64,000 nt of DNA, taken from the NCBI GenBank assembly GCA_016875095.1, contig VGSG01000011.1, positions 1 to 64,000 of the forward strand, given 5' to 3'. This DNA is from Deltaproteobacteria bacterium (GTDB taxonomy: Bacteria > Desulfobacterota > Desulfomonilia > Desulfomonilales > Desulfomonilaceae). The notes under the pieces are model-generated. The model saw only the letters and a list, made by a program, of their open reading frames with translations. It was not told the DNA's origin and did no database searches. Position numbers and translations under genes: made by a program. Position 1 is the stretch's first letter. Each line of letters begins with the position of its first letter. This document shows positions 6,310 to 11,900 of the stretch, one piece after another.

Positions 6310-8244
6310 ATGGAGAGAAAATCCGCGGTGACTTCTCATATCGACTACGAGCGAGACCTCAACCCCGCGCAGTTGGAAGCGGTCACGACGCCGGGCGGAC
6401 CTGTGCTCGTCATCGCGGGAGCCGGATCAGGAAAGACCCGCACCATCGTGTACCGCGTCGCGTGGCTTGTCGAGCAAGGGGTCGATCCCGCGTCCATACT
6501 GTTGCTCACCTTCACCCGCAAGGCCGCGGAAGAAATGCTCAGTCGCGCGTCTCGCCTGCTTGACACAAGGGTTGCCAAAGTCTCCGGCGGGACTTTTCAC
6601 TCCACCGGGAATCTGATCCTGAGACGCTACTCGACTCGACTGGGATTCGATCAGGCCTTTTCCATCATGGATCAGGGCGATTCCATAGAGGCCATCGACC
6701 ACATCAGGCATACCATTACTCCACCCATCCCTGACCTGAAGGATTTCCCCAGGGCAAGGACCCTCGCGGACATCTTCAGCCACGCGTCAGGCGCCGGAGG
6801 CGGTCTGGAGCGCTCGGTGGAGCTTCGGAGCCCCCATTTCATCCAGAACGTGGCTGACATGGAGCGCGTCCGTGGAGAGTACGAAAGATATAAAAAAGCT
6901 AACAACCTGATGGATTATGATGACCTGCTCTCGTGGACGATCCGCCTTTTGGAAGATCATGACCGAGTCCGGGCAGACATCTCGAATCGCTGGCGGCACC
7001 TGCTGGTGGATGAGTACCAGGATACCAACAAACTCCAGGCGCACCTCCTCAGGCTACTTGCGTCGGAGCACGACAATGTGATGGTCGTGGGGGACGACTC
7101 GCAGAGTATTTACTCGTTCAGGGGCGCGGATTTCCGCAATATCATGGAGTTCCCGAATCTCTTCCCCGGAACCCGAATCATCAAGCTCGAGGAGAACTAC
7201 AGAAGCACCGCGCCCATCCTGGCGCTCACCAACCGCATTATCTCCGGCGCCTCCGAGGGGTATGAGAAGAGACTCTTCACAAAGACGGAAGGCGGGTCAT
7301 TGCCCATTGCGGCGCGTCCCTCCAGCGAGCGCGACCAGAGCCGGTTCGTGATTCAATGTCTCTCCGAACTGGGAGACGCGGGCATCCCGCTCAATGAGGT
7401 CGCGGTGCTCTTCCGAGCCGGATTCCACTCTTTTGACCTGGAAGGCGAATTGACCCGCAACCGGATCGACTATGTGAAATACGGGGGGTTCAAGTTTCTG
7501 GAGAGCCTTCACATCAAGGACGTGCTCGCTCACCTCAAGGTGACAATCAACCCCCGCGATCGCCTCGGTTGGGCGCGAATCTTGAAGATACTGCCGGGTG
7601 TGGGCATCAAGACCGGCATGTCGCTGGCAAACACCATAGCGGAACAGGGCCTGCCCGCCCGGGCATCCGAACTGGTTCCAAGCTCCCGCAAGTACTCGGG
7701 AGCGCTGGACGAGCTTCTCGAACTGATTCACGATCTGAGGAACGGCGCCGATACGATCTCCGAGAAGGTGGATCGGGTGAATCGGCGCTATTTCCCCTTC
7801 CTGAAACAGAATTATGACAATTACCCAAAGAGAATGCGGGATCTGGAGCAGCTCGCGGATCTCACGGTCCCGTACAAAAGCCTGAATCGCTTCCTCAATG
7901 ATATGGCCCTGGAACCTCCCGACGAAGAGGCATCAGGCTCCGGACCGGGTTCGAACACGGTTGTTCTTTCCACGATACACTCAGCCAAGGGCCTTGAATG
8001 GCATACCGTGATCATCATTTGGGCGGCTGAAGGCAAGATACCTTCTCCCATGGCGTCCACCTCTCCCCACGAGATCGAAGAAGAGAGGCGGCTGATTTAC
8101 GTGGCCGCCACCAGGGCCAAACGCAATCTGGTTGTGTGCGCCCCTCGCACTCAACTGGATCGGGTAAGGGGAGTTATACCCGCGCGGCTCTCCCGATTTT
8201 TTGAAGAGATCCCTGACGAGTACTTCCGGGCAGTCTCTTTGTGA
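6310..8244 (+). CDS. UvrD/Rep/PcrA-family ATP-dependent DNA helicase (superfamily 1)
   Basis: 644 residues with the full motif set of 3'-5' SF1A helicases. Motif I is GAGSGKT (about 37-43), Ia LLTFTRKAAEEM, II DEYQDTN (about 233-239), III GDDSQSIYSFRGA, IV EENYRS, V STIHSAKGLEW (about 552) and VI VAATRAKRNL. These proteins unwind DNA in repair or replication restart. It is shorter than E. coli UvrD (720) and lacks a long C-terminal tail, so a Rep/PcrA-like assignment is as good as UvrD. The ATG has no strong ribosome-binding site; other starts nearby are possible. The tRNA-Ser gene follows 67 bases downstream. Confidence 0.93.
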   Translation: MERKSAVTSHIDYERDLNPAQLEAVTTPGGPVLVIAGAGSGKTRTIVYRVAWLVEQGVDPASILLLTFTRKAAEEMLSRASRLLDTRVAKVSGGTFHSTGNLILRRYSTRLGFDQAFSIMDQGDSIEAIDHIRHTITPPIPDLKDFPRARTLADIFSHASGAGGGLERSVELRSPHFIQNVADMERVRGEYERYKKANNLMDYDDLLSWTIRLLEDHDRVRADISNRWRHLLVDEYQDTNKLQAHLLRLLASEHDNVMVVGDDSQSIYSFRGADFRNIMEFPNLFPGTRIIKLEENYRSTAPILALTNRIISGASEGYEKRLFTKTEGGSLPIAARPSSERDQSRFVIQCLSELGDAGIPLNEVAVLFRAGFHSFDLEGELTRNRIDYVKYGGFKFLESLHIKDVLAHLKVTINPRDRLGWARILKILPGVGIKTGMSLANTIAEQGLPARASELVPSSRKYSGALDELLELIHDLRNGADTISEKVDRVNRRYFPFLKQNYDNYPKRMRDLEQLADLTVPYKSLNRFLNDMALEPPDEEASGSGPGSNTVVLSTIHSAKGLEWHTVIIIWAAEGKIPSPMASTSPHEIEEERRLIYVAATRAKRNLVVCAPRTQLDRVRGVIPARLSRFFEEIPDEYFRAVSL

Positions 8245-8311: not shown

Positions 8312-8404
8312 GGAGAGATGACCGAGAGGCCGAAGGTGCTCGCCTGCTAAGCGAGTGTAGGGTGTTGAGCTCTACCGAGGGTTCGAATCCCTCTCTCTCC
8401 GCCA
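8312..8404 (+). tRNA. tRNA-Ser (anticodon GCU)
   Basis: The acceptor stem GGAGAGA at 8312 pairs with TCTCTCC ending at 8400, followed by discriminator G and an encoded CCA at 8402-8404. The anticodon loop is CTGCTAA between the arms CTCGC and GCGAG, giving anticodon GCU. A long variable arm, typical of a class II tRNA, and the T-loop GGTTCGAATCC are visible. It reads AGC/AGU serine codons. Confidence 0.97.
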
Positions 8405-8447: not shown

Positions 8448-8526
8448 GCGGCGGGCTGGGGATCTCCTTCACTTCGGACGACCCAAGGCCGCCGGACTTT
8501 CGTTAGGGAGATCCCCAGCCCGCCGC
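8448..8526 (+). repeat. Structured palindromic repeat, copy A
   Basis: A perfect 20-base inverted repeat: 8448-8467 pairs with 8507-8526. The outer stem is GC-rich and encloses a 39-base loop with a weaker inner CGG/CCG pairing. The central 69 bases (8453-8521) align without gaps to the reverse complement of 38787-38855 at about 78 percent identity, including a compensatory change in the outer stem. No coding potential. It lies 43 bases downstream of tRNA-Ser(GCU). Confidence 0.75.
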
Positions 8527-8755: not shown

Positions 8756-9868
8756 TCAGACCTGATCGGCCTTACTCTTAATGAACGCGATGCTTGAGAC
8801 GGGAATGGTGTAGAGATCCTCGCCCGACTGGACGCCCACCAAGCCGTCCGAACTCCAGACGAGAATGCCCATGATGGTCTTGGACGATCCGAGAAGGCAG
8901 ATTTCCACTTCAGTGCGGGTGGAAGTGAGCCGGTCCAGAACGCTGCTGGTGGCGACGTAAGGAGAGCCTGTGATACTTGTGACGGTTTTCGCCATGGCTA
9001 CTTCCGGTTCCAATTCCTCATTGGGGGATAGTTCCGCCGCGATCCGCGGCGGAGAACTCACCGATGTCATGGACAGATCGTCGATGAGCTCGTCAATGAT
9101 TGTTTCATCCACGATCAGCGAATCGGTGATCGCAGCCCCTTGTGACGCGGGCGTGGACTGGTGGCCGCTCTTCTCGGCCATACGAGCAACCGGGCCCCGT
9201 TCGGGAGAGAGCGCGGCCGCTTGCTGCTTCAACGGAGGCGCCACGATCCTCTGCGCCAGGTTTTCAAAATCGCGCAGAGTGTACCTGAAATTGGTATTGA
9301 TAAACTTTACCTCGCATGGTAGCGGCTGATCACCGACTTTCGCGTTCATTGTTTCCGGCAATCGGAGCACTGTGTCGAGGCTGGTGTCAGTGTCGCAATT
9401 GAGATGCTGATTCATGCGCTTGATGACGGCCTCTATTTTCTCAGGATCGTCCACCTCGGTAACCTGCTTCAACAGCCAGTAAAGGTGAGCGCCTCTTCCT
9501 GACTCCACAATGATCGACGGCGCGCGGGGGAAGCTGCGGATCGCGCGGGCAGCCTGCTGTGGCCCTTCGAAGAAGACATGCTTGTCCTCGTGACCTTGCC
9601 GGCCGATATCCAAGTCCGCCCAGAGCGCCACAACGTAGCGGATGTGCTCTTTTTCCGCCTTCATTCGTTCGCGAGGGCAGATCCCGAAGTAGACATCCCG
9701 TTCTTCCGCATAATGTTCCTTCGACAGAATGTCTATATTGGGGAAGTACCGCGTACTCAACTTCGGGTCCCCACGCTTGAGGCTCTTTACAAGAATGAAG
9801 CCTCGATGCTCCTTGTAATAGTCCAGAAAGAGCGCTTCGAGGAAGTCCTTGCGTGTGAACCGCGCCAT
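8756..9868 (-). CDS. RepB-type primase-like protein with a possible C-terminal Sm/Hfq-like domain
   Basis: About 370 residues. Residues 1-210 carry the archaeo-eukaryotic-type primase core: LWADLD (about 84-89) with two metal-binding aspartates, SGRGAHLYWLL (about 124-134) and VLRLPETMNAK (about 168-178), the pattern of the RepB/bifunctional primase-polymerase family. A low-complexity acidic linker follows (about 215-310). The last 50 residues (VEICLLGSSKTIMGILVWSS, then YTIPVSSIAFIKS) look like a five-strand Sm fold, with YTIPVSSI placed where Hfq has YKHAISTI. Such primases are usually on plasmids or phages, yet no replicon or integrase gene is adjacent. ATG at 9868 is preferred over the GTG one codon earlier. 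A very good promoter precedes it. The primase domain is fairly secure; the Sm domain is an inference. Confidence 0.75.
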   Translation of the reverse strand: MARFTRKDFLEALFLDYYKEHRGFILVKSLKRGDPKLSTRYFPNIDILSKEHYAEERDVYFGICPRERMKAEKEHIRYVVALWADLDIGRQGHEDKHVFFEGPQQAARAIRSFPRAPSIIVESGRGAHLYWLLKQVTEVDDPEKIEAVIKRMNQHLNCDTDTSLDTVLRLPETMNAKVGDQPLPCEVKFINTNFRYTLRDFENLAQRIVAPPLKQQAAALSPERGPVARMAEKSGHQSTPASQGAAITDSLIVDETIIDELIDDLSMTSVSSPPRIAAELSPNEELEPEVAMAKTVTSITGSPYVATSSVLDRLTSTRTEVEICLLGSSKTIMGILVWSSDGLVGVQSGEDLYTIPVSSIAFIKSKADQV

Positions 9869-9919: not shown

Positions 9920-9948
9920 ACTATAGCTGTAAGTATCGGAAATGTCAA
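9920..9948 (-). promoter_or_regulatory. Near-consensus sigma-70 promoter for the primase-like gene
   Basis: Read on the minus strand, the -35 is TTGACA (9943-9948), the spacer is 17 bases and the -10 is TATAGT (9920-9925). The predicted start leaves a leader of about 45 bases before the ATG at 9868. It is the closest match to consensus seen in the window. Confidence 0.8.
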
Positions 9949-10159: not shown

Positions 10160-11548
10160 TCATCGCTTCTTGGCGTCCGACGGACGATGTTCCGCGGATT
10201 GTTCCTGTGGGCCTGCCTTTCGAGTGGCCCGCTTGAGGTTTTCTTTGATAACCTGGTTGTCCGGGTCCAGTTTTATCGCTCTTGAGAGCAGCTCTGCCTG
10301 CTGTTTGTCATCCCCTTTTTTCCCCGCCATTACCGCCTGATCGTTGTAGGCCATGGCCAAATCAGCCGCAATCTCCTTGCTGGAGGGGAGCAATTTGTAA
10401 GCCTTGCGGAGCAATTCGATCTCCGAGTCGTGCTTGCCCTGCTCGCCCAACTTCAGGGCCTCGTTATGCAGTAGAGCGGCAAGGTTCCTCTGGGCTCCTT
10501 TATTCTCCGGGTCGATTTTGAGGGCTTTTTCCAAGAGACGTTGGGCCTTGCTCGTGTCTCCTTTGTCTGATTCGGCAAGGGCCGACGCAAGGAGCAGATT
10601 GGAGAGGTTTACTTCGGTGGTGCGGTTCTTCGGGTCGAGCTTCAATGCGGATTCGAGCCTTGCGATCCGATCGGCGACGTGGAGATCCGTCTCCTTGGAG
10701 ATAGCGAGGTTGTTGTAGGCTGCCGCTAGATTCTTCGTTATTCCCGGGTCTTTCGGGTCGATCTTGCGAGCTTCCTCCAGCAGAGAAATCTGCGCATTCA
10801 TGTTCCCGTCTTTTCCTTTGGAGATCGCAAGATCGGAAAGGGCTCTGCCCAGATTCTTCGTGATTGTCTCATCTCTTGGAGACAGAGCCAGGGCTTTCCT
10901 GAGAAGCTCGACCTCTTCCTCCACGGCCGCTTGCTTACCCCTGGCCGCTGCCAAGTTGAAGTACGCTGTCGAGAGGTTCTTGCGGATCTTGGGATTTGCC
11001 TGATCGAGGGATGCCGCTTCCTCCAATCGGGCAAGCTCTTCATCGTGTTTGCCCCGTTTCCCTTCGCTCACGGCCAGGTTGTTGAGGAGCGCGGCCAGCG
11101 CTTTCTTTCCTTCTACCTTTGTCGGCTCCAGGGCTACCGCGTGCTTCAAGTAAGTAATTTTTTCGGCGCTGGTCAACTGGTTCGGGGGAAGAGCAAGGCT
11201 GTTGAATACGGCCTGTACGAAGTTCGATTTGACATCCGCGTCGTCCGGGACTAATTCCACGGCTCGTGCAAGCTGTTTCAGCGCTCCGGCAACCTCTCCT
11301 CTGCGCCGCATGTCTAAACCAAGGTTGTTGTGCGCTATCGCCAAAACACCTCGGTATTTCGAATTGTCCGGGGCTAGTTTGACGGCCCTTTCCAAGGGAT
11401 CCAGGGCAGCTTGGGTCTGATTGCGAGAGAGCAAGTGGCTTCCCTGAAAAAAGAGGTCTTCCGCTTTGTCGGGATTATCGGGGCTCTCGGCCGAAACCGG
11501 CGAGACGGCCAGCAGCATGACGAACGCAGTCAGTGCGAAGGCTCGCAT
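10160..11548 (-). CDS. Exported tetratricopeptide-repeat protein
   Basis: 462 residues from an ATG at 11548 with GGAG six bases upstream. A signal peptide (MRAFALTAFVMLLAVSPVSA) is followed by about ten TPR-like units of 36-44 residues, each with NNLA/KNL cores and a KLDPxN turn. Examples are AVKLAPDN, ARKIDPKDP, ALKLDPKN and AIKLDPDN. Such proteins are protein-binding scaffolds in the periplasm or on the outer membrane; no enzymatic domain is seen. It has no close same-strand partner: the primase gene lies 290 bases downstream. An in-frame start 23 codons earlier is less likely because it would bury the signal peptide. Function is unknown. Confidence 0.85.
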   Translation of the reverse strand: MRAFALTAFVMLLAVSPVSAESPDNPDKAEDLFFQGSHLLSRNQTQAALDPLERAVKLAPDNSKYRGVLAIAHNNLGLDMRRRGEVAGALKQLARAVELVPDDADVKSNFVQAVFNSLALPPNQLTSAEKITYLKHAVALEPTKVEGKKALAALLNNLAVSEGKRGKHDEELARLEEAASLDQANPKIRKNLSTAYFNLAAARGKQAAVEEEVELLRKALALSPRDETITKNLGRALSDLAISKGKDGNMNAQISLLEEARKIDPKDPGITKNLAAAYNNLAISKETDLHVADRIARLESALKLDPKNRTTEVNLSNLLLASALAESDKGDTSKAQRLLEKALKIDPENKGAQRNLAALLHNEALKLGEQGKHDSEIELLRKAYKLLPSSKEIAADLAMAYNDQAVMAGKKGDDKQQAELLSRAIKLDPDNQVIKENLKRATRKAGPQEQSAEHRPSDAKKR

Positions 11549-11900
11549 TGCCGCTCCAAGATCGACCCGGAAAAGAATCATGGCGCATCGCTCCCTATCG
11601 CGACTCCCCGGACTCATCTCTCTACCTTAGCCGGCATGGCGCAGAGTCCGTTGTCTCCACGCGCGACGCACTGTTATCACGGCCGCCGGGTACGGTCAAC
11701 GGTCCGGCGCACGGCTTGGTGAATGAAGGCTCGTTTCCGGCAATCGGCTTCCGGGTGCGATGGGTTGAGTCCGACACGACCTCATGTCAGCCGAAACGTT
11801 CTTGGAACCCCGAACGTCACTGGGAGCCCACATCTCTTGACAAAGACACCGGATGTCGCTAAAGGACGAAGTTTGAAGCTGAGCGCACAGGAGGTGGCGC
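11549..11900. promoter_or_regulatory. Divergent intergenic region with a candidate promoter for the ABC operon
   Basis: A 352-base gap between the TPR gene (minus) and the ABC operon (plus), with no supported gene. On the plus strand TTGACA at 11837-11842 is followed after 17 bases by TAAAGG at 11860-11865, a good -35 with a weak -10. The ribosome-binding site AGGAGGTGGCGC sits just before the ATG at 11901. Confidence 0.5.

Follow-up and report, generated by a model that had tools for sequence, protein, structure and literature searches.

An AEP primase-like protein with a predicted Hfq-type C-terminal fold encoded at a conserved chromosomal locus of the Desulfomonilaceae

In a chromosomal gene of the Desulfomonilaceae, an AEP (primase-polymerase-like) domain is joined through a long acidic linker to a C-terminal domain for which an Hfq-type fold is predicted (Table 1). 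The gene is an intact open reading frame with an ATG at position 9868, read on the reverse strand of the window, i.e., the whole 64,000-nucleotide stretch of DNA analysed. We read the protein, with a probability of about one half, as a domesticated mobile-element AEP primase that is oligomerised by an Hfq-type ring and is not a chaperone of small RNAs, its likely role being priming for repair or restart on single-stranded DNA. This reading builds on AEP homology, the predicted Hfq fold, the conserved fusion, a fixed locus, the loss of RNA-contact residues from the tail and the loss of motif I from the paralogues. The fusion is a new combination of known domains, and among the matches listed in the open-licence literature there was no report of such a fusion, from Desulfomonile or elsewhere.

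Table 1. Positions of the fusion gene, its parts, its neighbours and a paralogue (window coordinates unless a contig is given)
Feature	Position	Strand	Basis or remark
AEP-Hfq-fold fusion gene	8756..9868	-	370 aa plus stop; orthologues found
AEP (primase-polymerase-like) domain, residues 1-205	9254..9868	-	PHROG primase families; tblastn to phage/plasmid primases
Motif I, D85-x-D87	9608..9616	-	D85 in 8/8 orthologues, 0/12 paralogues; D87 in all 20
Motif II, SGRGAHLYW, H128	9476..9502	-	H128 in 28/28 rows
Motif III acidic candidates (D161, D165) and motif IV R169-x5-N175	9344..9388	-	R169, N175 in 28/28 rows
Acidic low-confidence linker, residues 206-305	8954..9253	-	pLDDT under 50; net charge
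Conserved acidic linker stretch, residues 249-267	9068..9124	-	kept in 7/8 orthologues, not L013
C-terminal domain with predicted Hfq fold, residues 306-370 (65 residues)	8759..8953	-	AlphaFold2, Foldseek, VIA-align, Pfam, column shuffles
Sigma-70-like promoter pattern, 11/12, ~50 bases upstream of ATG (weak)	9920..9948	-	pattern search
tRNA-Ser(GCT), syntenic landmark	8312..8404	+	
UvrD-like helicase gene, syntenic neighbour	6310..8244	+	
TPR-like protein gene, syntenic upstream neighbour	10160..11617	-	
Paralogue L002	G000:C82:17890-18498		11 further loci in family genomes: L014, L019-L024, L026-L029

The initial annotation had called the protein RepB-type primase-like and had pointed to primase motifs in its N-terminal part. 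These motifs were located as DLD (residues 85-87), SGRGAHLYW (123-131) and LRLPETMN (168-175), and the likeness to primases is borne out by the PHROG profiles: four families are common to all eight orthologues, among them one named DNA primase and another DNA polymerase/primase, and the best match of the window protein has an E-value of 7e-11 over residues 44-203. Searches by tblastn retrieved a primase as the single phage record (29%, covering 48% of the query) and seven plasmid records, including plasmid primases. The RepB assignment was rejected, because RepB_primase (PF16793), for all its likeness in motifs, matched none of the eight fusion proteins at E<=10 (HMMER filters on); three of the five distant or mobile-element relatives scanned gave weak sub-threshold matches to this family. 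In Pfam, the window protein matched no family at E<=1 or E<=10, and the eight orthologues matched five families in total, none of them in more than one member (best E 0.021). NCBIfam searches with the full-length proteins yielded only E 0.095 and 0.17, searching the PDB with profiles of either the tail or the whole alignment gave chance matches only, and phmmer with the AEP part against the PDB gave a single chance match. No helicase, PriCT, Zn or HTH domain was matched in the fusion in the Pfam and PHROG scans. The full-length AlphaFold2 model (four sequences) has a mean pLDDT of 42.4, and its AEP part is too low in confidence to be usable as a model.

We aligned the AEP motifs of 28 proteins (eight orthologues, 12 paralogues and eight distant or mobile-element rows). 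L009, L011 and L012, the same genes as L004, L006 and L005, were excluded from alignments and counts, and the AEP counts also leave out a 105-aa fragment at a contig edge (L003) and the G001 locus L025. Six residues are identical throughout: D87, G124, G126, H128, R169 and N175. In the scheme given in the available text of PMC5862659, AEP motif I is hhhDhD/E, motif II sxH, motif III hD/E, and motif IV an Arg followed by an Asn at a distance of six residues. For AEP/PrimPol-PV1, motifs I, II (H128) and IV (R169 and N175, spacing 6) are present in all eight orthologues. For motif III, the eight distant or mobile-element rows have an Asp six residues before R169, and the orthologues have S, N or G in this column. 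Acidic residues occur at positions 161 and 165, each in 8/8 orthologues, and L164-D/E165 fits hD/E but sits two residues closer to R169. One AEP family lacks the motif III Asp, and nearby acidic residues with variable spacing might participate there, according to the sections available of PMC5862659. As a guess from the alignment, D161 or D165 may stand in for the motif III Asp, and the odds that the AEP domain is catalytically active appear evenly balanced. In two genomes of the same genus, identity is 96% for the AEP part, whose synonymous sites are saturated, 54% for the linker and 74% for the tail (dN 0.146, dS 1.59, ratio 0.09); dS is saturated in most genome comparisons. By this comparison the gene is under strong purifying selection.

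Twelve paralogues possess the same AEP domain with a different tail, which is acidic, looks amphipathic and helical, and is not Hfq-like. D85, the first Asp of motif I, is present in 8/8 orthologues. At this position, six of the distant rows have D and two have E, and the paralogues have G in 11 cases and A in one, so that none of the 12 retains this Asp. In the phylogenetic tree, the paralogues fall on one side of a branch with 91/91 support and the fusion proteins on another with modest support (82/71); together they are set apart from the distant rows (98/99). Homologues without the Hfq-like tail, a case that the initial annotation had held against a real fusion, are represented only by these paralogues on their separate branch. 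At least one paralogue each occurs in the window's own genome and in G003, G005, G007, G008, G010 and G012; none was found in G009. A near-copy of the start of the C82 paralogue lies at a contig edge (L003, G000:C78:6-281) and is possibly a repeat or an assembly overlap.

The strand order of Hfq, which the initial annotation had recognized in the tail, reappeared in the fold prediction. AlphaFold2, run on residues 306-370 with three relatives (a model built on only four sequences), gave an Hfq/Sm-type fold with pLDDT 86.8 and pTM 0.67, in which a helix (2-11) is followed by five strands in Hfq order (15-20, 26-35, 38-43, 46-51 and 55-60); the full-length model, otherwise unreliable, shows the same tail fold. 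Foldseek against the PDB placed Hfq chains from many organisms at ranks 1 to 33 (best E 7.5e-4, TM ~0.85) and a designed SH3-like barrel at rank 34, and VIA-align on the Foldseek list reached Z-scores up to 11.6 (Caulobacter Hfq, rmsd 1.0 over 61 residues). By hhalign, the tail profile scored P 0.0013 and a probability of 18.6% against 30 Hfq sequences of the phylum (30 of the 44 places listed); none of 300 column shuffles was as good, and the reversed control was flat. Weak matches to Hfq_1 of Pfam (PF21979, best E 0.0053) and to Hfq_rel_Cyano of NCBIfam (NF047718, best E 0.006) were obtained with six of nine tails in each case; the window's own tail matched no Pfam or NCBIfam family, and Hfq PF17209 was not among the families for any of the nine tails at E<=10. 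A whole-genome Pfam search for Hfq_1 in nine genomes returned ordinary Hfq and noise, with the fusion not listed. The window's genome has a separate canonical Hfq on C1, above the family cut-off and the only match of the Hfq search in this genome, which is 20% identical to the tail. Kinship of the tail with Hfq has marginal but consistent support from sequence. That the tail adopts an Hfq/Sm fold is very likely from the models, and from this predicted fold we consider ring formation somewhat likely.

The Sm2 likeness proposed initially had two parts: the strand order stands, but the register, which paired YTIP with YKHA, does not, YKH being aligned three residues on, to P-V-S. In the alignment with four Hfq sequences, P-V-S are residues 356-358 (355-357 in another mapping), and Lys, Arg and His are absent from columns 354-358 of all nine tails, so the exact register is immaterial to the loss of these residues. 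RNA contacts of Hfq, as far as described in the text available of PMC5379935, are Gln8, Phe42, Lys56 and His57 on the proximal face, Asn13, Arg16, Arg17, Ser38 and Phe39 on the rim, and Tyr25 on the distal face. Across the nine tails, the proximal residues are replaced (Gln8 by T, S, R or a gap; Phe42 by G or N; Lys56 by P; His57 by L, V or I), as are those of the rim (Asn13 by E or D; Arg16 by S, T or F; Arg17 by S, A or T; Phe39 by N, S, C or T) and the distal Tyr25 (by S, L, C, F or A). Ser38 is the sole contact residue retained, as S in one tail, with W in its place otherwise. At residue 318, the counterpart of Hfq R19 in the alignment, 7/9 tails have R or K, and the net charge of the nine tails ranges from -5 to +1. 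The suggested link to small-RNA binding is not supported by this comparison: because the canonical contact residues are replaced in 9/9 tails, a small-RNA chaperone was rejected as the default function, and assembly of several copies into a ring is a more likely task for the tail than the handling of small RNAs. That it binds RNA to any functional effect is improbable. Four RNA-related terms were looked for in PMC8092324 and not found. Cyanobacterial Hfq retains the fold with key residues absent and has very low RNA affinity, according to the sections available of PMC10989914; the tails resemble it in the predicted helix and five strands and, in six of nine, in the weak Hfq_1 and NF047718 matches.

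The protein had matches in 13 of 119 genomes, its own included. Full-length fusions were found in the window's genome and in G003, G005, G007, G008, G009, G010 and G012, i.e., in seven of the 17 other genomes of the family, which represent six further genera (seven with that of the window), and the conservation across genera that the initial annotation had named as support is thereby confirmed. Nine of the 17, several of them incomplete, gave no match. G001 has linker and tail only, near a contig end (L071, G001:C122, 7308-7998), where ~240 bases upstream of the linker do not encode the AEP part; this is either a truncation or an assembly error. A pattern scan of a collection of 84,980 species genomes, which detects close relatives only, returned three loci, all labelled Desulfomonile (placed in Desulfomonilaceae by NCBI), and their proteins are identical to those of G012, G007 and G010. 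The tail profile matched three of 395 genomes of the phylum, all from this family. Nothing was found with the tail in viral contigs, and no match in phages and plasmids at E<=1; descent of the tail from a phage or plasmid was rejected on these grounds.

The upstream neighbour presumably encodes a TPR-like protein, and the helicase, judged from its sequence, we take to be UvrD-like. The promoter pattern is weak because one was found and shuffles gave 0.8 on average. In G003, G005, G007, G009, G010 and G012, the fusion has the TPR-like gene on one side and a spmA-like/spmB-like pair on the other, the four genes being on one strand (in G003, an extra ORF on the opposite strand separates the fusion from its TPR-like neighbour). 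The window and G008 lack the pair, and here the fusion is followed by the tRNA-Ser(GCT), ~350 bases away in the window, and then by the helicase. In a sister genus (G004, G014, G017), the TPR-like gene directly adjoins the spmA-like gene, with the tRNA and the helicase beyond and, in G017, one extra ORF between the tRNA and the spmB-like gene; since G011 has an opposite-strand ORF at the spmA-like position, three and not four sites are cleanly empty. The contigs of G002, G006 and G013 end too early to be counted either way. This shared syntenic locus in eight genomes agrees with the initial annotation, which saw no mobile genes adjoining and suggested a chromosomal gene. The trees built from the helicase and from the TPR-like protein each have one branch (100/100 in both) that separates carriers of the gene from genomes lacking it, and a single gain or a single loss would be enough to account for the distribution, the root of these trees not being fixed. 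Two further observations concern this region: between tRNA-Ser and the gene, where relatives carry the spmA/spmB-like pair, the window has a 25-base inverted repeat (8448-8526, 92%, 29 bases between the arms), and in G015 of the sister genus (L093), other genes follow the tRNA-Ser(GCT), unlike in relatives, possibly by insertion or rearrangement.

Several other readings have to be weighed against a ring-forming primase. The protein might be a non-catalytic nucleic-acid-binding regulator, in which the AEP fold is retained for binding and oligomerised by the tail; the non-acidic column at the usual motif III Asp, the retention of paralogues without motif I and the lack of a matched helicase, PriCT or Zn domain fit such a role. 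However, D85 together with D87 in 8/8 fusions versus D85 in 0/12 paralogues suggests that catalysis matters, and the AEP part is extremely conserved, so we regard the regulator as unlikely, if worth keeping in mind. A tail that still works as an RNA-binding Sm domain with altered contacts, coupling primer synthesis to RNA (e.g., with RNA or R-loops either used for priming or sensed), would suit the predicted fold and the basic residue 318, and archaeal plasmids have Hfq-like genes in one transcription unit with replication genes (PMC3543421, in the part available); it is nevertheless improbable given the replacement of eight contact positions (Q8, N13, R16, R17, Y25, F42, K56 and H57) and the net charge of the tails, -5 to +1.

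Chance of prediction would be required if the tail were another small beta-barrel, e.g., an SH3-like one. The marginal sequence signal, the designed barrel right behind the Hfq chains and the four sequences beneath the model could be taken that way, but all 33 top ranks are Hfq, the helix and five strands follow Hfq order, and the weak family matches of 6/9 tails are Hfq-related, which makes this very improbable. Least credible is a recent or decaying phage or plasmid insertion beside a tRNA, for which the phage and plasmid relatives of the AEP domain and the proximity of tRNA-Ser might speak: it was rejected because the same locus is occupied in eight genomes of seven genera and the same tRNA stands at the empty sites, and it is further opposed by the strong purifying selection and by a tail without viral or plasmid relative.

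If the protein is a domesticated, ring-forming primase, an AEP domain of mobile-element type would have lost the helicase part and become fixed as a chromosomal gene in the Desulfomonilaceae with an Hfq-fold C-terminus. The tail most likely builds an Hfq-like ring, probably a hexamer, that would hold several AEP domains on acidic tethers of ~100 residues. Single-stranded DNA and nucleotide are the probable ligands of the AEP domain, which probably synthesizes short primers or closes gaps where replication has stalled or the site is damaged; the paralogues, whose motif I is broken and whose tail is helical, would probably be partners or regulators without catalysis of their own. A more elaborate version seems improbable at present: a hexamer presenting six AEP domains, whose altered faces would hold RNA, an RNA-DNA hybrid or single-stranded DNA, so that the Sm ring might gate primer synthesis, with the motif-I-broken paralogues as partner subunits, a bacterial counterpart of catalytic/non-catalytic primase pairs.

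Phage and plasmid AEP primases (the PrimPol-PV1 supergroup and P4-family primase-helicases) share with the fusion the DxD of motif I, the xH of motif II, the R-x5-N of motif IV and the PHROG and tblastn matches; the fusion differs from them in its chromosomal location, its displaced motif III acid, its Hfq-fold tail and the absence of a matched helicase, PriCT or HTH domain. The terms 'Hfq' and 'Sm-like' are absent from the main text of PMC5862659 as far as it was available. From Hfq, the protein differs in the attached AEP domain, the replaced contacts and the absence of Lys and His in 354-358, where Hfq has YKH. The nearest case in the literature searched is that of the Zn-finger-Hfq-like proteins of Thermococcus plasmids, in which an Hfq-like domain is fused to another domain; their genes are directly downstream of a helicase gene, and the plasmids also carry a primase-polymerase, but there the Hfq-like protein is separate from it and belongs to archaeal plasmids, not chromosomes (PMC3543421, in the part available). 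If confirmed, this would be, to judge from our searches, the first case of an Hfq-type ring module attached to a primase-family protein, and one that several genera of a single bacterial family have kept at the same position in the chromosome. A primase of mobile-element type would here have been domesticated with its helicase left behind, and an Sm ring would be used as scaffold for a DNA enzyme instead of as an RNA chaperone; with broken-motif paralogues in the same genomes, a division of labour is directly testable.

The linker has a net charge of -7 to -18 in the eight orthologues. Amid its fast-changing sequence, a 19-residue acidic stretch is near-identical in seven of the eight and may be a docking peptide; a similar stretch is present in the paralogue L014.
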